From positions 1 through 32,418 of the forward strand of contig SHXO01000029.1 in assembly GCA_009693245.1 (NCBI GenBank): a DNA stretch of 32,418 bases, read 5' to 3'. The notes under the pieces were generated by a model that worked only from the letters and a program-made list of their open reading frames with translations, was not told the DNA's origin and made no database searches. A program made the position numbers and the translations under genes. The stretch is from Betaproteobacteria bacterium. Its GTDB lineage: Bacteria; Pseudomonadota; Gammaproteobacteria; Burkholderiales; SHXO01. Each line of letters begins with the position of its first letter. Positions within the stretch are counted from its first letter, which is position 1. Below are positions 12,823-28,522 of the stretch, piece by piece.

Positions 12823-12891
12823 TGTAAATCCACTAACATGCACGAGCTTGATCCTTCCGGGATCGTGCTCTTTCAACTTCCCGTCTTCACC

Positions 12892-15800
12892 ATGTGGATC
12901 GTCCAACTCGCGCTGCGCCGCCCCTACACTTTCATCGTGCTGGCGCTACTCATCCTGCTCGGGGGGACGGTCGCCATATTGCGCACGCCCGTCGATATCT
13001 TCCCCAACATCAACATCCCGGTGGTGAGCGTGGTCTGGCGTTACACGGGACTTGCCTCCGAGGAAATGGAAGCGCGTATCGTGGCGCCCTTCGAGCGTGC
13101 AATGACCGCGACGGTGAACGACATCGAGCGCATCGAATCCCAGACCGTCAACGGCGTGGGCGTGGTGAAAGTGTTTTTCCATCCGGGCGCCCTCATTCAG
13201 ACCGGGTTGGCGCAGGTGATTGCCATCGGGCAAACCATGCTGGGGCAGTTCCCGCCGGGTGCCACGCCGCCTCTGGTATTGAGCTACAACGCCTCCACGG
13301 TGCCCATCGTGCAACTGGTGCTGTCGAGCAAGAGTTTGGCGGAGCACGAGCTATTCGATCTCGCCAACAGCAACATGCGCACTCAACTGGCCACGGTGCA
13401 AGGCGCCATCCTGCCCTTTCCCTACGGTGGCAAATCGCGCCAAGTGGTGGTGGACCTGGATCCGCGCGCGCTGCAAGCGAAGGGATTGTCCGCGCTCGAC
13501 GTGGTGAACGCCGTCAATGCCCAGAACCTGGTGCTGCCCACGGGGACGGTGAAGATCGGGGGCTTCGAGTACGTGGTGGGGCTCAACGGCAGCCCGCGCT
13601 CCATCGCGGAGCTGAACGACTTGCCCATTCGCACGGTGGGGGGCAGCACCCTCTACATCCGGGATGTGGCCAATGTGCGCGATGGTTTTCAACCGCAAAC
13701 CAACATCGTTCGCCACGACGGCCAGCGCGCGGTGCTGATGAGCATTCTCAAGTACGGCCAGGCCTCCACGCTGGATATCGTTCAGCGCGTGCTAGATGAG
13801 GTGCCTCGCATGAAGGCGGGCCTGCCGCCCGAGTTGGACATTCAGACCGCGCTCGACCAGTCTTTGTTCGTGCGTGCGGCGGTGGAAGGGGTGGCACAAG
13901 AGGCCGTGATCGCCGCTTGCTTGACGGCGCTTATGATTCTGCTATTCCTGGGCAGTTGGCGCAGCACCTTCATCGTCGCGGTATCGATTCCCCTGGCCAT
14001 TCTTTCCTCCCTGGCGGTTCTCCACATGCTGGGCGAGACCATCAATATCATGACCCTGGGAGGTCTCGCGCTCGCGGTGGGTATTTTGGTGGACGATGCC
14101 ACCGTGGCCATCGAGAACATGGAGCAGCACCTGGAACGCGGTAAGTCCTTGGACGCGGCCATCCTGGATGGCGCCCAAGAGATCGCGGTGCCCACCTTCG
14201 TATCCACCTTGGCCATATGCATCGTGTTCGTGCCGATGTTTTTCCTGGCGGGCGTGGCGCGCTATTTATTCGCGCCGCTGGCCGAGGCCGTGGTCTTCGC
14301 GATGCTGGCCTCCTATCTGCTGTCTCGCACCTTGGTGCCCACGCTGGCCAAGTACCTGCTGCGCAAGGAAACCCATCAGCCCGGCGCTCCTCGCCGCAAT
14401 CCGCTCGCGATGTTTCAGCGCGCCTTTGAGCGGGGCTTTTCCAACATGCGCTTGCGCTATCGCAGCATGCTGGAAAGTTGTCTCGCGTACCGAACGCTTT
14501 TCCTCTCCTTGTTCATGGCGGCTTGTATCGCTTCCGCTGCCCTCATGCCGTGGCTGGGGCAGGACTTCTTCCCGGCCGTGGACGCTGGCCAGTTCAAACT
14601 GCATTTGCGCGCCAAGACCGGAACCCGCATCGAGGAAACGGCGCGCTTGTGCGATTTGGTGGAATCGCAAATTCGCCGCATCATTCCGGCGGAGGAGTTG
14701 GACACGATCATCGACAACATCGGATTGCCCTCCAGCGGTACCAACCTGTCTTACAACACCTCCGGGACGGCGGGAACCGCCGATGCCGACATAAACGTGG
14801 CGCTGAAGAAGGGCCACCGTCCCACGGAAGAGTACGTACGCATCTTGCGCAAGGAACTGCCGAAACTTTTTCCGGGGATCACTTTTTACTTCCTACCGGC
14901 CGATATCGTCAGCCAGATTCTCAACTTCGGATTGCCATCGCCCATAGATATACAGGTCGTGGGCCGCAACATCGAGGGCAATCGCAAATTCGCACTGAGT
15001 CTCTTGCAACGCCTGCGCGAGGTGCCAGGCCTTGCCGACGTGCGTATCCAGCAGGCCTTCGACCAGCCCAAACTCGATATTAACGTGGACCGCACCAAGG
15101 CCCAGCAAATCGGTTTTTCGCAACGCGATATCGCCAGCAGCCTGCTGATCACGCTGAGCGGCAGTTTTCAAACCAACCCGGCGTTCTGGCTCAATCCCAA
15201 GAACAGGGTGAACTACTCCGTCATCACGCAGACGCCGCAGTACACCATGGACTCGCTGGACGCACTCTTCAACATCCCGGTAACCGGGCAAAACGGCGCG
15301 CGCGCGGAGGTACTAGGTAATCTCGCCACCATGGAACGCGGTAGCGAGCGCGCGCTCATCAGCCACTGGAACGTGCAACCGGTCATCGACCTGTATGCCT
15401 CCACGCAGGGGCGCGATCTGGGTGGCGTGGCGAAGGACGTGACCAAGATCGTGCGAGATATGGAGAAGGAATTGCCGAAGGGTTCGCGGATTCTTCTACG
15501 CGGCCAGATGGAAACCATGAATTCCTCCTTCACCGGGTTGCTCATAGGCTTGGCGATCGCCATCGTGCTCGTCTATCTGCTGATGGTGGTGAATTTCCAG
15601 TCCTGGCTCGACCCCTTCATCATCATCACCGCTTTGCCGGCGGCGCTGGCGGGCATCCTGTGGATGCTGTTTGTCACTCACACCACCCTTAGCATTCCCG
15701 CCTTGACGGGCACGATCATGGCCATGGGTATCGCCACCGCCAACAGTATTCTGGTGGTGAGCTTCGCGCGCGAGCAGTTGCGCCAGGGTGCTAACTCCAT

Positions 15801-16074
15801 CACTTCAGCCATCGAAGCGGGATTCGGGCGCTTTCGCCCAGTGCTGATGACGGCCTTGGCCATGATCACCGGCATGGTGCCCATGGCCTTGGGGTTGGGC
15901 GAGGGCGGGGAGCAGAACGCGCCCCTGGGGCGGGCCGTGATCGGAGGGTTGGCATTCGCCACCGTGGCCACACTGTTTTTTGTTCCCGTGGTGTTCGCGG
16001 CCATTCATAATAAGCGGGGTGTGTTAAGCCTACCTGGCACCGCCGGGGAAGCATTGCAAAGGGTACCGGGCTAG
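12892..16074 (+). CDS. RND efflux transporter permease subunit (AcrB-like)
   Basis: This inner-membrane, proton-driven pump of 1060 residues has the usual AcrB length, with two halves of six helices and two large periplasmic loops. The start MWIVQLALRRPYTF at 12892 is the typical short cytoplasmic lead; a frame from 12838 adds 18 unlikely residues. The proton-relay pair Asp401-Asp402 (GILVDDATVAIENM) is present. The helix that carries the essential lysine in AcrB (Lys940, AKN) reads ATANSILVVSFA here, with Ala950 before Asn951, so the lysine is missing. The adaptor gene follows eight bases downstream. No outer-membrane channel gene is next to it. The substrate cannot be told from the sequence. 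Confidence 0.9.
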   Translation: MWIVQLALRRPYTFIVLALLILLGGTVAILRTPVDIFPNINIPVVSVVWRYTGLASEEMEARIVAPFERAMTATVNDIERIESQTVNGVGVVKVFFHPGALIQTGLAQVIAIGQTMLGQFPPGATPPLVLSYNASTVPIVQLVLSSKSLAEHELFDLANSNMRTQLATVQGAILPFPYGGKSRQVVVDLDPRALQAKGLSALDVVNAVNAQNLVLPTGTVKIGGFEYVVGLNGSPRSIAELNDLPIRTVGGSTLYIRDVANVRDGFQPQTNIVRHDGQRAVLMSILKYGQASTLDIVQRVLDEVPRMKAGLPPELDIQTALDQSLFVRAAVEGVAQEAVIAACLTALMILLFLGSWRSTFIVAVSIPLAILSSLAVLHMLGETINIMTLGGLALAVGILVDDATVAIENMEQHLERGKSLDAAILDGAQEIAVPTFVSTLAICIVFVPMFFLAGVARYLFAPLAEAVVFAMLASYLLSRTLVPTLAKYLLRKETHQPGAPRRNPLAMFQRAFERGFSNMRLRYRSMLESCLAYRTLFLSLFMAACIASAALMPWLGQDFFPAVDAGQFKLHLRAKTGTRIEETARLCDLVESQIRRIIPAEELDTIIDNIGLPSSGTNLSYNTSGTAGTADADINVALKKGHRPTEEYVRILRKELPKLFPGITFYFLPADIVSQILNFGLPSPIDIQVVGRNIEGNRKFALSLLQRLREVPGLADVRIQQAFDQPKLDINVDRTKAQQIGFSQRDIASSLLITLSGSFQTNPAFWLNPKNRVNYSVITQTPQYTMDSLDALFNIPVTGQNGARAEVLGNLATMERGSERALISHWNVQPVIDLYASTQGRDLGGVAKDVTKIVRDMEKELPKGSRILLRGQMETMNSSFTGLLIGLAIAIVLVYLLMVVNFQSWLDPFIIITALPAALAGILWMLFVTHTTLSIPALTGTIMAMGIATANSILVVSFAREQLRQGANSITSAIEAGFGRFRPVLMTALAMITGMVPMALGLGEGGEQNAPLGRAVIGGLAFATVATLFFVPVVFAAIHNKRGVLSLPGTAGEALQRVPG

Positions 16075-16081
16075 AGAAGCA

Positions 16082-17263
16082 GTGGAAACCGATGAAATGA
16101 CGCCTCGCCGCGGCCATCCGTTACGCAAGGTCCTTGCGTTTTGCGGGGGATTGGCCTCGATCGCGCTGTTGTTGTGGTTCGCGATCCACCCTCGCATGGA
16201 GAGCACCGCGGCGCTCAAGAAGGACACGGAGAACCTGAATGTTCCCACCGTGGCGGTGATCTCGCCGAAAAATGGGAGCCCCGGCCAGACCTTGGTACTG
16301 GCCGGCAACATGCAGGCGCTCACGGAGGCGCCCCTCTACGCGCGAACCAATGGCTACATCAAGCGGCGGTTGGTGGATATTGGCACGCGCGTGACCGCCG
16401 GCCAATTGCTGGCCGAGATCGACACGCCCGAGGTCGATGAACAATTACAGCAGGCACGGGCCGACCTCGCCACCGCCACGGCGAACTACGAGCTGGCGCG
16501 GAAGACCGCCGAGCGCTGGCAGGAATTGCTGAAATCCAACACCGTGTCCAAGCAGGGTGCCGATCAAACCCACGGCGATATGCAGGCCAAGAAGGCGGCA
16601 CTGGATTCGGCGCGCTTCAACGTGGCGAGATTGGAGAAGACCCAGTCATTCAAACGCATTTTTGCGCCCTTTGCCGGCGTGATCACCACGCGCAACGCGG
16701 AGGTGGGCGCGCTTGTGGATGCGGGCGCCGCGGGCAAGGATAAGGAGCTGTTCCACGTGGCGGCCACCGACAGGCTGCGCGTGAACATCAGCGTGCCTCA
16801 GGTTTATTCGCGCGAGATCACCCCTGGGATGGAAGCGGAGCTGGTGCTGGTGGAGTTTCCAGGGCGCCGCTTCAAGGGCATGCTGGTGCGCACCGCCCAA
16901 TCCATAGACGCGACCTCCCGCACATTGCAGGCGGAAGTGGAAGTGGATAACCCCACGGGCGAGTTGCTACCCGGGGCCTACGCGCAGGTGCATCTGAAAC
17001 TTCACGCCGGCAAGCCCGCTTTGATCCTGCCCGTGAATGCGCTGCTGTTCCGTCCCGAAGGCGTGCAGGTGGCCGTGGTGGCGGCGGACAACAAGGCAGT
17101 ACTCAAGAAGGTGGCGCTCGGTAAGGATTTCGGTACGCAGATCGAAGTCGTCTCGGGCCTCGACGCCAACGAACAAGTCATTCTCAATCCCTCCGATTCG
17201 CTCATCTCCGGAACCGTGGTGCGGCCAGTCAAGCAACAAGAGGAAAAAAAGCCTGGTGGCTAG
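16082..17263 (+). CDS. RND efflux periplasmic adaptor subunit (membrane fusion protein)
   Basis: This 393-residue HlyD/AcrA-type adaptor links the upstream RND pump to an outer-membrane channel. An N-terminal membrane anchor (about 15-35, VLAFCGGLASIALLLWFAI) carries no lipobox. Lipoyl-like halves (ARTNGYIKRRLVDIGTRV and FAPFAGVITTRNAEVG) flank a coiled-coil hairpin (about 118-185, rich in Ala, Gln, Glu), and beta-barrel and membrane-proximal parts follow. The start is GTG at 16082 or ATG at 16097, and neither is decided by a clear Shine-Dalgarno. The order pump-then-adaptor is the reverse of acrAB. Confidence 0.88.
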   Translation: METDEMTPRRGHPLRKVLAFCGGLASIALLLWFAIHPRMESTAALKKDTENLNVPTVAVISPKNGSPGQTLVLAGNMQALTEAPLYARTNGYIKRRLVDIGTRVTAGQLLAEIDTPEVDEQLQQARADLATATANYELARKTAERWQELLKSNTVSKQGADQTHGDMQAKKAALDSARFNVARLEKTQSFKRIFAPFAGVITTRNAEVGALVDAGAAGKDKELFHVAATDRLRVNISVPQVYSREITPGMEAELVLVEFPGRRFKGMLVRTAQSIDATSRTLQAEVEVDNPTGELLPGAYAQVHLKLHAGKPALILPVNALLFRPEGVQVAVVAADNKAVLKKVALGKDFGTQIEVVSGLDANEQVILNPSDSLISGTVVRPVKQQEEKKPGG

Positions 17264-17873: not shown

Positions 17874-19190
17874 TTAGAAGAACCAGCGAATCTCCGCGAA
17901 CAGCGCTTTGTTTTTCGCTAGGAGCTGGTAGGAGGTGTTGTCCGAACCGCTGGAATACTCGTAACCGCCTAACAGCTTGATGCTGTCGCTCCAGATGTAG
18001 CTTACTTTCGTGCGCAGGAAGTATCCGGCACGGTTGAGCAGCACGGAGCCGGCGAATTCGCCTTCGAGGGTTTCGTTCATCCACTTCTTGGCTATCCGGG
18101 CGCTCAAGCCGTGCTGGTTCTCGTCGTATTGGTTGTTGAGCACGGCGTTGTCGGCGGCCGCGTTGCGGACATCGGGATTGGCGATGGCATCCACCGGGTT
18201 GAAGTGAAAAACGTGGCGGTAGAAGTACTGCACGATGCCGCTTAGGTTGTTGGTGAAGTCATGCTCGAGCCCGAACACGCCGTAGAAGTGCGGGTTCTTG
18301 ATGGACGGATTCGCACCGTCCGAATCCTCGGTGCGCGTGTAGGCGGCTTCCACCGCGTACCGGTTCGCCCCGCGCGTGGTGGCCGCATCGGCGCCTAGCA
18401 CTTTGACGCGGTGATGCCGGAGATCGATGAACGTGTGCATGGCCGTCACTCGCGCCAGGGATATATCGGGCGTGAGATCGAAGCCGTCGTAGTAGGACGC
18501 GGACCAATCGATGTTGCCTCCGGAAACGTCGTACTTGATACCGAATTGGCGCGCGCTGCTTGGCTCGTCGTGGTTGAAGGTAACGTCAGGATTATTGGTG
18601 AAAGGATATTCATGGGATTGGAAGTCCGGCAACCACGCGGCGGTGACGCTCTGGCCTTGTCCCCAATTGAAGGAGTCCTTCGCGGCGAGCGACCCGAAGC
18701 GGTCTTCGTCGAATTCTGGTGACAGCAAAGTGAAGTCCCGCGGCGTGAGATTGTCCGATGGGTTCAAGCGGTCCGTGCGGCCCCAGGCCAATATCTGCTT
18801 GCCAACGCGGAAATCCCATTTGTCATGGCGAAAATCCAAATAGGCTTCGCGTACGCGATGGGTGCTGCGTTTATCGCCAAGGATGTCTTCCTTCCCAAGA
18901 TAGCCCTCGGCGAATACCCCCATCCCTTTTCCGAGCTTGCGGTCGAGCTTCGCCCAAAGCTGGCCCACGCCCAGGTGGCTCTCGTCATCCGAGCGGCGGT
19001 TCGATGACCAATAGGCGCCGCGCGCGGAGCCCGTGACGCCCCAATCGCGCAATGTTGCCTTGATGCCGGAGCTGGCGGCAGCCCCCTCCGGAGGCGCCAG
19101 AGGAGGTTCGTCATCCTGCGCATTGCAAGTTGTGCCACCGAGCAGGGCGAGCGCAAGAGTGAGTGCGTAAGCGGGCTGTCTTAGCCTCAC
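17874..19190 (-). CDS. Outer-membrane beta-barrel protein (DUF1302-like porin)
   Basis: This protein has 438 residues with a signal peptide (AYALTLALALLGGTTCNAQ). The rest is a succession of amphipathic strands ending in RWFF, a C-terminal phenylalanine typical of outer-membrane barrels recognised by the BAM machinery. The segment VREAYLDFRHDKWDFRVGKQ with AWGRTDRLNPSD resembles DUF1302 and related porin-like proteins. The start is GTG 19190, overlapping the stop of the RND/LolA gene by four bases (GTGA), so its translation is coupled. The neighbours suggest it receives or exports the substrate handled by the RND transporter and the LolA-like domain. Confidence 0.8.
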   Translation of the reverse strand: MRLRQPAYALTLALALLGGTTCNAQDDEPPLAPPEGAAASSGIKATLRDWGVTGSARGAYWSSNRRSDDESHLGVGQLWAKLDRKLGKGMGVFAEGYLGKEDILGDKRSTHRVREAYLDFRHDKWDFRVGKQILAWGRTDRLNPSDNLTPRDFTLLSPEFDEDRFGSLAAKDSFNWGQGQSVTAAWLPDFQSHEYPFTNNPDVTFNHDEPSSARQFGIKYDVSGGNIDWSASYYDGFDLTPDISLARVTAMHTFIDLRHHRVKVLGADAATTRGANRYAVEAAYTRTEDSDGANPSIKNPHFYGVFGLEHDFTNNLSGIVQYFYRHVFHFNPVDAIANPDVRNAAADNAVLNNQYDENQHGLSARIAKKWMNETLEGEFAGSVLLNRAGYFLRTKVSYIWSDSIKLLGGYEYSSGSDNTSYQLLAKNKALFAEIRWFF

Positions 19191-19999
19191 TCCTGCTCCA
19201 TGTAGCGCGTGGTGAAGTATTCGTCCTTGACCCCCGTATTCGCCTTGGACGTGTCGATACGAATCTCGGTCTTGTGCTCGGTCTGGACGTTGTGCGTTTC
19301 GAGCAGGAAAGCCTGGTAGCGCTGCTTGGCGGGATCGGTGAGCTTATAGTTGGAAAACTTCGTTTGCTTTAGCAACTCGCCTGCTTCGTCGTAGAGCTCT
19401 CCCTTGAGAATCACGAAAGCCGCCTTGTCGATCCAGCCGATGCGCTTGGAGTAGCCGGTGTTGGATTTGACGGTGGGACTGGCGGGAATGGATTCGATCA
19501 CATAGCAATCCTTGCCATCCACTTGCTCTTCCCTGAGGATCTTGTGACTCCATTCCTTGGGCTTGTGGCCGATCACGTCGCCGTAGGAGAAGTCCGTTCC
19601 CACGAAGCTGTCCTTCTTGTTGCTGGAAATCAGGCGGCGGACCTTCTTGGTGCTGGGCAGGTAGATCCAGATATCGTCGTCCTTTTCGGAGTGCTCGATC
19701 AAGAGCGAGACGGTGCCCTTGACGTCCGTGGGTTCGAGAAAACGCGTCATGCGCATGTTGTCGATGCCGTTGGCTTGAAGCTTCGAGGTGCCAAAGGTCT
19801 TGCGCACGCGCTGCTTGCCTTGCTTGTTGGTCAAGGTCATCGTGGTCTGCGAAATGGAGTCTTGGTACTTGTTGGAGAGAAAATTCTTCTCCATGATCTC
19901 CAGGGACGTTAGCGCGTACGCCGGTTGCGGCAGCGCCATGAATAATGCGGTCAAGCCCGCGATGGCGATGGCGGCGGGGGCCAGAGTGGGTTTTTTCAC
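19187..19999 (-). CDS. LolA-like protein, possible separate product from an internal GTG
   Basis: Inside the RND frame, a GTG at 19997-19999 starts a complete 270-residue secretory preprotein. It has a KK n-region, a hydrophobic core (LAPAAIAIAGLTALFMAL) and an AYA cleavage site, followed by the mature LolA-like domain. GGAG lies eight bases upstream. The same residues can therefore be made either as the C-terminus of the transporter (from codon 878) or as a free periplasmic protein. The family binds acyl chains and carries lipoproteins or lipids across the periplasm. Whether independent initiation happens cannot be told from sequence alone. Confidence 0.5.
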   Translation of the reverse strand: MKKPTLAPAAIAIAGLTALFMALPQPAYALTSLEIMEKNFLSNKYQDSISQTTMTLTNKQGKQRVRKTFGTSKLQANGIDNMRMTRFLEPTDVKGTVSLLIEHSEKDDDIWIYLPSTKKVRRLISSNKKDSFVGTDFSYGDVIGHKPKEWSHKILREEQVDGKDCYVIESIPASPTVKSNTGYSKRIGWIDKAAFVILKGELYDEAGELLKQTKFSNYKLTDPAKQRYQAFLLETHNVQTEHKTEIRIDTSKANTGVKDEYFTTRYMEQE

Positions 20000-22630
20000 G
20001 TGGGAAGCTCCGTTGAAAATGAATTTTGGTCTGAATTTGTGCACCAGCGCGGGCATGACGGTCAATGCAGAGGTCACGCTGACAAGCATGGCGGTGCCGA
20101 TCAAGATGGCGTTCCAGGTGTGCGGGTAGTAGCCACGCGAGAGCGCCTGCACGGCATAGCCGCCGGCCACCGCGGAGGCGACGAACAGGCAAGCCTTGCC
20201 AGCCGTGGTAAGCACCGTGTGGAAGGCCTGCGTTTCCTCCGTGCCCTTGCCTAATTCCTCGCGTAAGCGGAACAGCATGTAGATGGCGTAATCGGCGCCG
20301 ATGCCGATGGCCAAGGCGGAGGTGAGTGCCACCGGTACGTTGAGATGCAAGCCCATGAGGCCCAGCAATCCCATGTTCACCAGCACCGAGAGCAGAAGCG
20401 GCGTGATCACCAGCGCACCCGCCACGGCGGAACGGAACACAAGCGAAGCGATCAAGAACACGACGCCGGCGATCTGCACCACGTTGAGGATCTTGTCCTT
20501 CACGATGACTTCGGTGATGGCCGCGGACTGCGCCACGCTGCCGCCGAGGTTGACCTTGATGTTGGGCGGGAACTCTTTCTTGACGAACTCCTTGGCCTTT
20601 TCCCACATGGCCAGCATATGAACGGTGCTGTCGCTGTGAGAGAAGACCACCATGTTGGCGAGGCGGTATTCGTAATCGACGTAGGTGTCGAAATCGCCGG
20701 GCTCTCCGGACATGGAATAGAGCAGCATGAACTCGGCGATGGTCGCCTGGCTATCCGGGATCTTGAAGAAAGCCGGATCGTTGTTGTTCATGGATTGGTT
20801 CATGCGTTTGATGAATTCCGCGAGCGACATGACCTTGCCGATATGGGGTTGCTGGCTGATGAAAGTCTGCAGCTTGTCCATGGCTTTCAATACCGCGGGG
20901 TCCTTGATGTCGTCGGGCTTTTCCCCCTCGATCAACACGTACACGTTGTTGGTGCCGGCCATGCGGTCGTTCAGCATGCGGTCTTGCACCAACAGCGGCA
21001 GGTCGCGGTCGAAGTATTTCTTCAGCGAACTTTCCACGCCTAGCCGGCTCATGCCGATGAGGGAGAGCACGATCACCACGCCTGCGATGATGAACAACCG
21101 GCTGCGGTTAGGTCCCGTGATGGTGCGGGCGTAGAAACCCGTGAGGCGGCCCCACACGCGCTCTTCGCTTTCCATGCGCGCTTCCTTCTTGCCGGGAGGA
21201 GGCAGGATGGCCCGTAGCGCCGGGATGAAGGTCATCTCGACGATCAGCACGCTCAGAATACCGAGGCCGGAGAAGATACCGAAAACCTGAATGGATATGA
21301 TGTCGAAAATAGCCAGGGAGAAAAATCCGCAGGCGGCAACGATCCCCGCGGTCATCATGACGGGGCCGATTTTCGTGATCGATTCGACCACCGCCTCGCG
21401 GTTGGCGCGGATGTCGCGTTCGCTGGCATAAGCGCGCGGCTTCAACCAGAAGCGGATGAGGTGCCATCCACCCGAGTAAACGAAGTAGGAGGCGTAGGCC
21501 AATACCGCGGAGGAGACCACCAGCCCAGCGGTGAGCGCTCCGCCCTTGAGTCCGAGCAAGGATCCCAGCATACCGGTGATTCCAGCCTGCCATTGCTTGA
21601 AGTACAGCGTGGCGAAGATGGCGGCGAAGGAGAGCCACATCGCGATGCGTTCGGTCTTGCCCATGGCGCCCCAAAGCTCGTCAATGTCGATGTCGGGCTT
21701 GGGATTGATGCGCAAATACTCTTCGTAATAGCGTTTAAGCAACTGAACGGCATGGCCCGCGCCCACGGCCAGAATCAGAATCGGCGTGGACATGTTGAAA
21801 ATATCCAGTGGTACGTTGGCGAGTCCCATGAAGCCCTTGCTCCATTCCACCGCCACCAGCGGCGTCAAGAGCGGAAGAATGAGACCTTGCCAGGTACGGA
21901 AGGCCTCGAAATGGATGAGGCCGATGATGACCAGCGCGGCCAATAGCAGCATCGGCGTGCGGCCCGCGAATTTCTCGAACATGGACAGGAATGGTGGGTA
22001 ACCGCTCACCATGATGTCCACGCTATCGTCCCGCTCCGCGTCGACGATAGCGTTGATCTTGCTCGCCACGAAGGTGAACCCGCCCTTGACGTCCTTGCTA
22101 TCGGTGGGTTTCCTGTCGCGTACTTCGGCGAGGATGACCGTCGTCTTCCAGTCCGTGGAGACAACGGAGTTCATGTAAGCGGTGTTACGTTGCAACGCGT
22201 CCTTCAGGGCGGCCATCTGCTCGGGCGTGACGGGCACGTCCGCCATCATCTGCTTGACCTCCATGCCATCCACGGTTCCCCGGATGTCCTTGGCGCGGCG
22301 CGCGGAGAGCGACAAGATGTTGGTCTTGACGATACGCGGGGTTTCGCGCAGCTTGTTGGTGATGCGCTGAACTTTTTCCAGCACGAAGGGCTGGAACACG
22401 TCGCCTTGCTTCGGCGTGATGCCGATCACCGCGACGTAACGCGAGCCGAATACCTCTTCCACCTTCAAGGTGGTGGCGATGAAAGGATGCGAACGCGGCA
22501 CGATGTTGTTCGGATCGATGATCACGGTGAGGTTGCCGCCCTTCGAATTCATGAACCAGGTCATCGCCAGAATGACAACGATCACTATCCAGCGGAACTT
22601 TACGATGAAGTCAACGTAACTGCGTAGCAT
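19187..22630 (-). CDS. MMPL-type RND transporter fused in frame to a LolA-like lipoprotein-sorting domain
   Basis: This frame has 1147 residues. Residues 1 to about 870 are an RND/MMPL exporter of the hydrophobe type. There are two sets of transmembrane helices with periplasmic loops, GAGHAVQLLKRYYEEY in the first half and AIGIGADYAIYMLFRLREEL in the second. Residues from about 905 to the end form an outer-membrane lipoprotein-sorting (LolA-like) domain (LIEHSEKDDDIWIYLPSTKK, DFSYGDVIGHKP). Between them lies a signal-peptide-like stretch (VKKPTLAP... to PQPAYA). ATG 22630 is preferred to TTG 22636 because AAGGGAG precedes it. The two domains are, to my knowledge, usually separate genes. The substrate is probably a lipid or hydrophobic compound, by family. 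Confidence 0.87.
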   Translation of the reverse strand: MLRSYVDFIVKFRWIVIVVILAMTWFMNSKGGNLTVIIDPNNIVPRSHPFIATTLKVEEVFGSRYVAVIGITPKQGDVFQPFVLEKVQRITNKLRETPRIVKTNILSLSARRAKDIRGTVDGMEVKQMMADVPVTPEQMAALKDALQRNTAYMNSVVSTDWKTTVILAEVRDRKPTDSKDVKGGFTFVASKINAIVDAERDDSVDIMVSGYPPFLSMFEKFAGRTPMLLLAALVIIGLIHFEAFRTWQGLILPLLTPLVAVEWSKGFMGLANVPLDIFNMSTPILILAVGAGHAVQLLKRYYEEYLRINPKPDIDIDELWGAMGKTERIAMWLSFAAIFATLYFKQWQAGITGMLGSLLGLKGGALTAGLVVSSAVLAYASYFVYSGGWHLIRFWLKPRAYASERDIRANREAVVESITKIGPVMMTAGIVAACGFFSLAIFDIISIQVFGIFSGLGILSVLIVEMTFIPALRAILPPPGKKEARMESEERVWGRLTGFYARTITGPNRSRLFIIAGVVIVLSLIGMSRLGVESSLKKYFDRDLPLLVQDRMLNDRMAGTNNVYVLIEGEKPDDIKDPAVLKAMDKLQTFISQQPHIGKVMSLAEFIKRMNQSMNNNDPAFFKIPDSQATIAEFMLLYSMSGEPGDFDTYVDYEYRLANMVVFSHSDSTVHMLAMWEKAKEFVKKEFPPNIKVNLGGSVAQSAAITEVIVKDKILNVVQIAGVVFLIASLVFRSAVAGALVITPLLLSVLVNMGLLGLMGLHLNVPVALTSALAIGIGADYAIYMLFRLREELGKGTEETQAFHTVLTTAGKACLFVASAVAGGYAVQALSRGYYPHTWNAILIGTAMLVSVTSALTVMPALVHKFRPKFIFNGASHVKKPTLAPAAIAIAGLTALFMALPQPAYALTSLEIMEKNFLSNKYQDSISQTTMTLTNKQGKQRVRKTFGTSKLQANGIDNMRMTRFLEPTDVKGTVSLLIEHSEKDDDIWIYLPSTKKVRRLISSNKKDSFVGTDFSYGDVIGHKPKEWSHKILREEQVDGKDCYVIESIPASPTVKSNTGYSKRIGWIDKAAFVILKGELYDEAGELLKQTKFSNYKLTDPAKQRYQAFLLETHNVQTEHKTEIRIDTSKANTGVKDEYFTTRYMEQE
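20008..20011 (-). promoter_or_regulatory. Internal Shine-Dalgarno for the LolA-like start
   Basis: On the minus strand GGAG (20011 to 20008) is followed by CTTCCCAC and then GTG (19999-19997), a spacing of eight bases. It lies within the open RND/LolA frame, exactly where a signal-peptide coding stretch begins. Confidence 0.5.
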
Positions 22631-23304
22631 CTCCAATCTCCCTTGTAATCGCTATTCTTACTACCCGCGATAGCCATTGTGCGCAAAAAACAATCGACGA
22701 TCCGTTCGCACTGCTGTTGCTCGTTTGTTCTTGAAATCTTCATTCCATAAAGCAAGCGCGCTCTGTCGTAACCGGTCAGCATGCTCATCAACATCTCGGC
22801 CGCGAACCGCGCGTCCGTCTTGCGAAGTTCCTTGCTCGCCATGCGGCGTTCCAAGAACTGCGCGAGGGCGTCCTGCGCCGCCTGCGGCCCCGTCTTGTAA
22901 ATCAACCTTGCCAGGGACGGGAAGCGCGGCGCTTCCGCCACCAGGGCGCGGTAAACCCCAATTCCCTCGGGAGACAGCGTGCGGGCGCGGATGGCCTTGG
23001 CAAAGCGCAGGAGCGCTGTTCTGACGGAGACGTCGGGTTCGCCTAGCGACACCACGATGGTGCCGGCGATGTGCCGAATGACTTCCTCGAACAACTTTTC
23101 CTTGCTGCCGTAATGGTTGTAGACCGTCTGCTTGGCGACCTTGGCTTGCGCCGCGATATTGTCCATGCTCGCGTGAAATCCTTGCGCCATGAAAACCTTG
23201 ACCGCGGCCGCCAGCAAGCATGCGCGTTTGTCCGTGCCGTTATCCGCCGCCTTGGGTGCGCGGCTGGATACGGCCGGTGCTTCGGTCGTGGCAACTCGCG
23301 GCAC
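22600..23304 (-). CDS. TetR family transcriptional regulator
   Basis: This 234-residue regulator has the TetR DNA-binding domain at about 26-76 (MDNIAAQAKVAKQTVYNHYG, then SKEKLFEEV), after a 25-residue disordered lead. The C-terminal half is a helical ligand-binding domain (GVYRALVAEAPRFPSLARL, typical of the AcrR-like C-terminal family). The start is GTG with GGGGGGAAG upstream. Its 3' end overlaps the RND transporter start by about 31 bases, so it leads the operon. It probably represses its own operon through the palindrome at 23332-23350 and responds to a hydrophobic ligand. Confidence 0.88.
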   Translation of the reverse strand: MPRVATTEAPAVSSRAPKAADNGTDKRACLLAAAVKVFMAQGFHASMDNIAAQAKVAKQTVYNHYGSKEKLFEEVIRHIAGTIVVSLGEPDVSVRTALLRFAKAIRARTLSPEGIGVYRALVAEAPRFPSLARLIYKTGPQAAQDALAQFLERRMASKELRKTDARFAAEMLMSMLTGYDRARLLYGMKISRTNEQQQCERIVDCFLRTMAIAGSKNSDYKGDWRCYAVTLTSS

Positions 23305-25958: not shown

Positions 25959-26411
25959 TCAACCCTGGTTCGTGGGAACCAGCACTTCATTGAATTTCGC
26001 GAAGAACTGGTCCGCGATCTTCTTGGCCGCGCCACTCACCAGGCGCGAGCCGATCTGCGCGATCTTTCCGCCTACCGAGGCCTTGGCGTTGTAACTTAAC
26101 TTGGTGCCCGTGGGATCTGAGCTGAGTGTCACCTGGCAACTGCCCTTCCCGAAACCCGCCACACCGCCCGTGCCCTCGAAATGCAAGGTGTAAGTGTCCG
26201 GTACGCTTACATCGGTGAGCGTGAGCTTGCCGCTGAATTTCGCTTTCACCGGGCCAATGGAGGCGACCATGGCCATCTTGTATTCGCTATCCGTGATCAT
26301 CTCCACGGTCTCGCAACCGGGAATGCATTGCTTGAGGATCGCGGGGTCGTTCAGCGCTTCCCACACTTCTCGTTGCGGAAGGGCGATGATTTGCTCGCCA
26401 ATCATTTCCAT
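25959..26411 (-). CDS. coxG: CoxG-like SRPBCC family protein
   Basis: This 150-residue protein is of the CO dehydrogenase subunit G family, with a START/SRPBCC-type hydrophobic-pocket fold. Typical segments are LPQREVWEALNDPAILKQCI followed by PGCE, GPVKAKFSGKL and VGGKIAQIGSRLV. In carboxydotrophs CoxG is linked to membrane anchoring or maturation of CO dehydrogenase; in other clusters it accompanies molybdenum hydroxylases. The start overlaps the end of the VWA gene by ten bases. The symbol is given by family and does not imply CO oxidation. Confidence 0.83.
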   Translation of the reverse strand: MEMIGEQIIALPQREVWEALNDPAILKQCIPGCETVEMITDSEYKMAMVASIGPVKAKFSGKLTLTDVSVPDTYTLHFEGTGGVAGFGKGSCQVTLSSDPTGTKLSYNAKASVGGKIAQIGSRLVSGAAKKIADQFFAKFNEVLVPTNQG

Positions 26412-27574
26412 CGTTGTGTTGTCCTTGTAGTCGTGGCGGCACGATCCGGCGAGAGCGCGTGCGCCAAGTCCATCAAACTGCTTACATTATGAGCCGGCCG
26501 GAACTCGTCCACGTGGGGCAGCATGAGCCGCACGCCCTGCGCCAAGGGCTTGAAGCCATCGTAACGCAGCAGCGGGTTTAGCCATAGCAGTTTCCGGCAG
26601 GATTTGTGAAGGCGTTCCATGGCCTCTGACAGGACTTCCCCGCCATCGCGCTCCAACCCGTCGGTGATGATGAGCACCACGGCATTCTGCCCCAACACCC
26701 GGCGCGACCAGCGCTGGTTGAATTCGCGCAAACTCGTGCCGATGCGGGTCCCGCCCGACCAGTCGGCAACCAGGCATGACACGGCGCCCAAGGCCGCCTC
26801 CACGTCGCGATGGCGTAGCGCTCGCGTGACATTGGTCAGCCGGGTGCCGAACAAGAACACATGCACCCGGTCGCGGTCGTTGGTGATGGCGTGCAAAAAG
26901 TGCAGCAGCATCTCGGAGTAGCTATTCATGGAACCCGATATGTCGCACAACACCACCAGCGGCGGATGGCGCAAGCGCGGCGAGCGTTTCGCGAGCAGCA
27001 GCAGTTCGCCTTGTCCGCGCAGGCTTGCGCGCAAAGTGGCACGCAGATCCACTCGCGGGCCGCGAGGGTCGGGCCTGGAGCGCCGCGTTTTGATTTCTGG
27101 TATGGGCAAGCGCAAGCGCGCGAGCATGCGCTTGGCTTCGCGAATGTCTTGCGCGCTCATGGACTGAAAATCCATGGCCCGCAGTTGCTCCTCCCGGGAG
27201 GCGGTGAAGGTGGCATCGAGACTCTCGGTATCTTCCGGGCGTGGCGAATTTGTTCTCGGTGTAAATGCCTCGGCGACCCGCCGCGAGATCTCATCGCCTT
27301 CCGCGTTGCCGTTGTTGTCTCGGCCGCTGGCTTCGGTAACGAAGGGTTTTTGCTCCCAGAAATAGCGAAATGCCGCGTCGAACAATTCCAGTTGCGCGTG
27401 CCGGTCAGTCAATATGGATGCGAGCCCCCAGTAGAAGTCATCCCTTTCTTCCACCCCGACCAGTTCCGCCGCACGCAGCGCATCCAGAATTTGCCCCGAG
27501 CCGATGGGCAACCCGGCGCGCCGCAATCCGCGGGCGAAGTGGACGATGTTTGGGGCTAAGGTGCCGGCGGGCAT
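26402..27574 (-). CDS. coxE: CoxE-like VWA domain protein
   Basis: This 390-residue protein has an N-terminal helical region (GLRRAGLPIGSGQILDALRA, the usual CoxE opening), a low-complexity charged middle (about 85-130), and a C-terminal von Willebrand factor A domain. The metal site DISGS starts at Asp211 (VVLCDISGSMNSY) and LIITDGLERDGG follows. With its MoxR partner it is thought to act in assembly of the Mo-Cu or Mo-S active site of CO-dehydrogenase-like enzymes. GGAGG lies upstream of ATG 27574. It is 28 bases after the MoxR gene. Confidence 0.87.
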   Translation of the reverse strand: MPAGTLAPNIVHFARGLRRAGLPIGSGQILDALRAAELVGVEERDDFYWGLASILTDRHAQLELFDAAFRYFWEQKPFVTEASGRDNNGNAEGDEISRRVAEAFTPRTNSPRPEDTESLDATFTASREEQLRAMDFQSMSAQDIREAKRMLARLRLPIPEIKTRRSRPDPRGPRVDLRATLRASLRGQGELLLLAKRSPRLRHPPLVVLCDISGSMNSYSEMLLHFLHAITNDRDRVHVFLFGTRLTNVTRALRHRDVEAALGAVSCLVADWSGGTRIGTSLREFNQRWSRRVLGQNAVVLIITDGLERDGGEVLSEAMERLHKSCRKLLWLNPLLRYDGFKPLAQGVRLMLPHVDEFRPAHNVSSLMDLAHALSPDRAATTTRTTQRWK

Positions 27575-27602
27575 GCGGCATTTCCTCCGGAGGGTTGCTG
27601 GG

Positions 27603-28487
27603 TCAGGAACTCAACAGCGCTTGGCCTTCCTTGCCCTTGATCCGCTCGATGTCGTCGCGATACTTGAGCAGCACACCCAAGGTTTCATCAACCACTTCGG
27701 GATTGATTTCAGTGACGTTTAGAACGGACAGCGCCTTGGCCCAATCGATGGTCTCGGCCACGCCGGGGGGTTTGAACAATTCCATTCCACGTAACTTTTG
27801 CACCAGGGCCACCACTTGGGCCGATAGGCTCGCGGCTAGGCCGGGCACTTTGCGAGAGACGATCTGTAGTTCCCGCTCGGCGCTGGGGTAATCCACCCAG
27901 TGATACAAGCAGCGGCGCTTCACCGCGTCGTGTATTTCGCGCGTTCGGTTGGAGGTGATGATCACCACGGGAGGTTCGCTGGCTTTCATGGTCCCAAGCT
28001 CGGGGATGGTGACCTGGTAATCCGAGAGCACTTCGAGCAGGTAGGCCTCGAAGGGTTCGTCGGCGCGGTCCAGCTCGTCGATGAGGAGCACGGGCGGTGC
28101 GCCCAGATCGCCTTCCAGTGCCTGCAGAATGGGCCGGCGAATGAGGAAGCGCTCGGAGAAGATATCTTGCGCGAGGCCTTCGCGGGAGCGTGCCCCTTCC
28201 ACTTCCGCGAGGCGGATCTCGATCATCTGCCGGGAGTAGTTCCACTCGTACACCGCGGAGGCGATGTCCAGCCCTTCGTAGCATTGCAGCCGAACTAATT
28301 TGCGGCCCATGGTGCTGGCGAGGACCTTCGCGATTTCCGTCTTGCCCACGCCCGGCTCGCCTTCGAGAAAAAGTGGCCGGCCCATGCGTAGCGCAAGATA
28401 TACCGACGTCGCAAGGCTGCGCTCGGCGATATAGTCGCCGCGATTGAGAAGTTCCAGGGTGTCGCCGACGGAAGCGGGGAGGGGCAT
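27603..28487 (-). CDS. coxD: MoxR family AAA+ ATPase (CoxD-like)
   Basis: This 294-residue AAA+ chaperone has Walker A GEPGVGKT at 43-50, Walker B LLIDELDRAD at 134-143 and sensor residues around IITSNRTREIHDAVKRRCL. MoxR ATPases pair with VWA proteins to insert metal or sulfur into enzymes; CoxD does this for CO dehydrogenase. ATG 28487 (MPLPASVGD) is chosen. An ATG at 28511 in the same frame overlaps the loop of a stable hairpin and would add eight residues. Confidence 0.87.
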   Translation of the reverse strand: MPLPASVGDTLELLNRGDYIAERSLATSVYLALRMGRPLFLEGEPGVGKTEIAKVLASTMGRKLVRLQCYEGLDIASAVYEWNYSRQMIEIRLAEVEGARSREGLAQDIFSERFLIRRPILQALEGDLGAPPVLLIDELDRADEPFEAYLLEVLSDYQVTIPELGTMKASEPPVVIITSNRTREIHDAVKRRCLYHWVDYPSAERELQIVSRKVPGLAASLSAQVVALVQKLRGMELFKPPGVAETIDWAKALSVLNVTEINPEVVDETLGVLLKYRDDIERIKGKEGQALLSS

Positions 28488-28501
28488 GGTTACAAGCGAA
28501 A

Positions 28502-28522
28502 CGGGCCTCATCGCGAGGCCCG
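28502..28522 (-). terminator. Hairpin between the FAD subunit and MoxR genes
   Basis: A perfect stem CGGGCCTC / GAGGCCCG with a five-base loop (10 base pairs counting flanking AA/TT) lies 20 bases past the FAD-subunit stop. Read on the minus strand it is followed by TTTCGCTT. It could terminate or attenuate transcription, giving less of the assembly genes than of the enzyme subunits. Confidence 0.5.

Follow-up and report, generated by a model that had tools for sequence, protein, structure and literature searches.

In the window, i.e., the whole stretch of 32,418 nucleotides analysed here, an RND transporter and a LolA-like carrier are encoded in one open reading frame, in which the carrier part begins with a Shine-Dalgarno-like (SD) site, a start codon and a signal-peptide-like segment of its own. 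Related loci conserve this internal start and a cut-site motif, share the operon and have repeatedly interchanged between fused and split arrangements of the two genes. The pattern is probably explained by an overlap in frame of the pump gene and the carrier gene, which would yield two primary products, both cut to one free periplasmic carrier.

Comparison of the sequences leads us to infer that the internal start is used and the products are cut, along with the topology and the handling of a substrate, as follows. Ribosomes would make two products, a 1147-residue pump-preLolA polyprotein and a 270-residue preLolA initiated at the GTG at position 19999. RND pumps have 12 transmembrane segments and a cytoplasmic C-terminus, for which reason the retained signal peptide is expected to insert as one further N-in segment, with the LolA domain carried to the periplasm. 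Signal peptidase I (SPase) could cut after the AYA motif in both products, so that each would release the same free carrier. This carrier may receive a hydrophobic substrate from the pump and hand it over to the DUF1302-like outer-membrane protein of the next gene; by analogy with AmeABCD, a hydrophobic compound is likely moved from the inner towards the outer membrane. Because the same carrier would be released whichever way LolA synthesis starts, fusion and fission would be nearly neutral and could interchange.

A putative gene start within one reading frame

The frame spans positions 19187-22636 of the reverse strand and encodes 1147 residues from the ATG at 22630 or 1149 residues from the TTG at 22636. 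Its pump part (20000-22630, reverse strand; residues 1-877) is HAE3/MmpL-like. It belongs to the MMPL family of Pfam (PF03176, 155 bits; gathering score 20.5), and MmpL4, MmpL5 and MmpL3 are its sequence relatives among PDB chains. Because its score with TIGR00921 (HAE3), 224.3 bits, lies under the curated cut-off of 351.9, the pump is here called HAE3-like and is not assigned by that model to the family. It also has an additional region, some 90 residues long and containing hydrophobic segments (21416-21697, residues 312-405). Its place is taken by 5-12 residues in 36 of 46 orthologues and by 84-103 residues in the window, L003, L004 and seven further loci (L095-L101), with sequences that differ among the three printed in full; in the AlphaFold model, residues 332-399 mostly have pLDDT values below 50.

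The sequence-only reading had described, at codon 878 of the transporter frame, the elements of a separate secreted-protein gene with no stop codon before them, and each element was found by direct reading and Pfam searches. On the reverse strand, a GGAG (20008-20011) is followed after eight bases by the internal GTG (19997-19999). The signal-peptide-like segment that begins there (19913-19999, residues 878-906; VKKPTLAPAAIAIAGLTALFMALPQPAYA) has a KK n-region, a hydrophobic core and an AYA end. What follows (19190-19912, reverse strand; residues 907-1147) would, if cut after AYA, be a mature carrier of 241 residues and about 27 kDa. Residues 959-1146 belong to the LolA_like family (PF17131, 185.2 bits; gathering score 30), and among LolA-like chains of solved structure PDB 3bk5 is closest in sequence (E 7e-36). 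The AlphaFold model gives residues 873-907 pLDDT values below 50 and leaves the junction and the topology undefined.

Downstream, an outer-membrane β-barrel-like protein of the DUF1302-like type (17874-19190, reverse strand; PF06980, 26.7 bits, cut-off 23.2) starts at a GTG that overlaps the TGA of the fusion by four bases. Upstream, a TetR-family protein (22600-23304, reverse strand; PF00440 and PF14246) is a possible regulator of the operon. Elsewhere in the window, an AcrB-type RND pump is followed by its periplasmic adaptor, pump first (12838-17263, forward strand), and a VWA protein (MadC-like, 64 of 600 bits) lies adjacent to a MadB-like AAA ATPase (278 of 475 bits) at 26402-28511, both scores being under the cut-offs.

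Fused and split relatives

After removal of duplicates and of rows that could not be judged, the comparison comprised 26 fused loci, including the window, and 18 split orthologues. A scan of genome contigs gave 13 loci, i.e., six fused (L003, L004, L005, L008, L011 and L012), six split (L006, L007, L010, L013, L014 and L015) and one, L009, that ends at a contig edge past its RND stop, with LolA off the contig, and that was counted as split because this stop is visible. Whole-genome searches identified relatives in 31 of 369 genomes of the class, 7 of 299 of the phylum, 15 of 300 and 19 of 398 in two overlapping draws from the order, and 8 of 17, 4 of 12, 2 of 4 and 13 of 100 in the families of other hits; these counts hold at the threshold of each search; distant relatives are among them, and so is the genome of the window wherever it was drawn. 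Duplicate pairs were L129 and L012, L136 and L014, L123 and L003, and L127 and L004. Three loci were left out of the trees, namely L109 (broken RND frame), L139 (partial) and L125 (LolA at the contig start). Loci of genus g528 are referred to as Nitrotoga on the basis of L012 and L014.

The sequence-only reading had also considered that a stop codon or an indel might have been missed around 20000-20060. The existence of split orthologues and a single-base difference between the two arrangements in Nitrotoga speak for such an error, but 25 loci besides the window are fused in the same way. Among these are L003, with a fusion protein that shares 89% identity with the window's and has the same GGAG-8-GTG junction, and three loci in single-contig genomes (L106 in G602, L134 in G1078 and L130 in G1087). 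Because relatives are fused alike, an assembly artefact in the window is exceedingly improbable and was rejected. One genome, G386, carries two diverged fused copies, L004 and L091, which are 69% and about 58-61% identical to the window.

The genome of L003 (G438) has a family code different from that of the window, and the outer-membrane proteins of the two loci are only 55% identical, compared with the 89% of the fusion proteins. The fusion locus was absent from all three other genomes of the window's genus (E 0.001), two of which are only 68% and 78% complete. Relatives are also present in sequence records that carry the labels Zixibacteriota and Bdellovibrionota. Because of the close match under another family code, the genus-mates that lack the locus and the relatives in these two groups of records, horizontal transfer is probable.

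LolA can be seen in 17 split loci, in all of which its frame differs from that of the pump; in 16 of them the pump stop overlaps the LolA start, by four bases in 15 loci and by more in L100; in L013, the first LolA start lies one base past the pump stop. With LolA out of frame and the overlap this tight, one small indel would fuse or split the pair. Such events were counted on a maximum-likelihood tree of 47 rows, built from the RND part only with the junction removed. Parsimony required eight changes between the fused and split states, at least six of which are forced by well-supported branches, and bootstrap replicates gave 7-8 (26 fused and 20 split rows). This count treats as split L094, an RND orthologue with no LolA nearby; when it was left uncounted together with L124, which meets a contig end, eight changes remained (26 fused and 19 split rows, the outgroup L121 being one of the latter), while the six forced changes refer to the count with L094. 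L094, L009 and L124 were scored as split in a first tree, which had eleven additional distant rows, all split, and gave nine changes, five of them forced. In L094 (genome G465), both LolA and the outer-membrane partner are absent from the stretch fetched, and the neighbours resemble, as read from their translations, an acyl-AMP ligase and a phosphopantetheinyl transferase.

On the pump tree, the fused L005 is nested in split relatives and the split L014 in fused Nitrotoga. Between AGGAG and GTG, both of which are kept, L014 is one base shorter than the fused L012 and otherwise free of substitutions; this difference is possibly a sequencing error of that single genome.

The operon contains a second junction for comparison. 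A homologue of the barrel is found downstream in all 42 ingroup loci with enough sequence left, and by our count LolA and the outer-membrane protein overlap by four bases in 21 of the 42. These two genes are fused in none of the 42 loci, whereas the pump and LolA are fused in 26 of them, and in all 43 loci with LolA its frame ends within six residues of the LolA match. A signal peptide placed behind LolA would emerge in the periplasm and could not work. A wider reading, plausible yet evenly poised, is that a one-base change merges the overlapping genes while two selected starts are kept, that elsewhere the inner start is lost to give obligate polyproteins dependent on SPase, and that flips occur only where topology allows. 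The state would flip because SPase makes the fusion nearly invisible to the cell, at topology-permitting junctions only.

Inner start, predicted cut site and probable fate of the fused product

By energy alone the SD site of the window is unexceptional, since its score is reached by 5 of the 101 other internal starts in the frame. Because this measure is unconvincing, conservation was compared with that of the same codons elsewhere in the gene. Fifteen fused loci (the window, L003, L004, L005, L091, L092, L102 and eight Nitrotoga) keep GGAG or AGGAG with ATG or GTG where the start of split relatives sits. A comparable pair is absent in ten (L008, L089, L093, L103-L108 and L138), and L011 is ambiguous. 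Among all 20-codon stretches of the frame, those that match the SD energy account for 0-5% in 13 of the 15 loci, 7.8% in the window and 16% in L003, compared with 0.11 in L011 and 0.23-0.99 in the ten. A single change on the tree separates fused rows with the inner start from those without it (L011 omitted).

In both groups tested, conservation of the SD and start codons exceeds that of the same codons at other places in the gene, which, together with the pair at the homologous place in 14 further fused loci, makes the window's pair more than a chance match. In the first group (the window, L003, L092, L004, L005 and L091, which together do not form one fused clade and whose GGA shares are 0.06-0.24), only one of 36 conserved pump glycines is GGA in all six rows, and it is that of the SD site. 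The window, L003 and L092 have an invariant GGA at one of 55 conserved glycines, or one of 49 when L004 is added; of 293 four-fold codons, 146 are the same in the window and L092. Split relatives behave alike, with GGA throughout 11 rows at one of 39 conserved glycines; in the split L101, GGAC replaces GGAG. In the second group, the eight fused Nitrotoga, 38 arginines are conserved, and of their codons just one is AGG and just one AGA in every row, both of them in AGGAG, while the start is GTG in seven rows and ATG in one, i.e., the residue changes and the start is kept. In this group, L012 has 49-69% of its four-fold codons in common with the other rows. The control throughout is the other codons of the same rows, and because these rows are related, no probability is given.

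A cut-site-like motif follows the hydrophobic segment of the fused proteins more often than it follows hydrophobic segments of the RND part. A loose AxA-like rule is satisfied by 26 of 26 fused rows and 204 of 329 RND segments, [AV]xA by 20 of 26 and 76 of 329, and a strict pattern by 16 of 26 and 27 of 329; a separate comparison gave 16 of 26 and 35 of 379. For the ten rows that lack the inner start the corresponding fractions are 10/10 against 79/126 (loose), 9/10 against 35/126 ([AV]xA) and 5/10 against 14/126 (strict). The rows are related, and Fisher values for these comparisons overstate significance. In a shuffle test, 17 of the 26 fused rows reached full score, a number equalled in 0 of 2000 shuffles (mean 5.2); for the ten rows the result was weak, 6 compared with a mean of 2.9 (74 of 2000 as high). 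The scoring rule is itself poor, because split preproteins, which must be secreted, mostly miss full score: only 2 of 16 reach it (shuffle mean 3.4; L137, which lacks the anchor motif, omitted), and no site is found in L014. The rule picked AWS in L106 and, in L008, L012, L104 and L105, a site adjoining the one chosen by eye. Overall, these comparisons leave the predicted cut site supported but not proven, and give moderate support for its retention in the ten fused lineages without an inner start.

Three readings had been offered for the fused frame, namely a fusion that tethers the carrier to the pump, a fusion cut by SPase and two overlapping products. A permanent tether, in which the signal peptide would stay uncut as an additional transmembrane helix and keep the LolA domain next to the exit of the pump, would give a sensible 1:1 ratio of pump to carrier, and the fused state can be stable, being common to all eight rows of one clade (100/99). 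A tether is nevertheless unlikely in view of the eight interchanges (six forced) with split orthologues within the same operon, the SD and start retained in 15 fused loci, the retained AxA-like sites, and a distance of 2-9 residues (by our rule) from the predicted cut to the first conserved LolA motif, which is short for a shuttle that crosses the periplasm.

The conserved SD and start of the tested groups, and the one base that separates the two arrangements in Nitrotoga, would also fit release of free LolA from the internal start alone, with the long product a tolerated by-product and the in-frame arrangement neutral. This, too, is improbable: the ten fused loci without a clear inner start would depend on the fusion, and because the pump has no stop codon, every complete pump is made as a fusion that must be cut or tolerated. 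These ten loci also imply that dual initiation is not general. Of the readings offered, two products from one frame is supported by an SD site and a start that fused genes in the tested groups conserve more strongly than their synonymous codons in general, and SPase cutting by the [AV]xA motifs of the ten rows, tempered by their weak shuffle test. We therefore favour the two readings together, i.e., two overlapping products that would both be cut by SPase to the same free carrier.

Known systems and the meaning of the fusion

The closest known arrangement is AmeABCD of Castellaniella defragrans, in which an HAE3 RND pump, a LolA-superfamily periplasmic protein and a DUF1302 outer-membrane protein form one cassette linked to monoterpene tolerance (PMC6394551). 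The present locus resembles it in having a pump, a LolA-superfamily protein and a DUF1302 partner (the last by a PF06980 score above its cut-off). The AmeABCD pump (787 residues) and its LolA-superfamily protein, of the DUF1329 type, are separate, whereas here pump and LolA_like domain share one frame; AmeABCD also includes a fourth protein, AmeC (COG4447), whereas here the TetR protein, the fusion and the barrel fill 17874-23304, where neither a separate DUF1329 protein nor AmeC is found.

The HpnN and MmpL transporters belong to the same pump family, but their models match the pump part only, with best stretches that end by residue 871, and the LolA_like part is extra in the window's protein. 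PDB 3bk5 resembles the C-terminal domain but is a separate chain of 237 residues.

In Bradyrhizobium, FbcH, the cytochrome b/c1 protein, is a polytopic membrane protein in frame with a preprotein that keeps an internal signal peptide, and it is cleaved into two. The proteins are unrelated to those discussed here, cleavage is established for FbcH and predicted for the pump-carrier fusion, and we know of no inner start in FbcH. The pump, the carrier and the barrel are thus of known kinds, and a polyprotein cut by SPase has a precedent in FbcH. An in-frame RND-LolA fusion was not encountered among the titles and abstract openings listed in literature searches on RND with LolA, DUF1302/DUF1329, bacterial polyproteins, internal initiation and the Nitrotoga proteome; nor did those on RND with LolA and on bacterial polyproteins show a pump-carrier fusion with two putative starts and repeated interchange.

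Gene fusions are often taken as a sign that two proteins act tethered together. The present comparison points the other way: the fused pair probably still ends as two proteins, and fusion would be evolutionarily cheap because the signal peptide of the second protein would still work. Split loci, fused loci with an inner start and fused loci without one form a natural series in which it may be tested how in-frame overlaps and bacterial polyproteins arise. The series also carries a warning that domain architecture alone is no basis for predicting a tethered complex.
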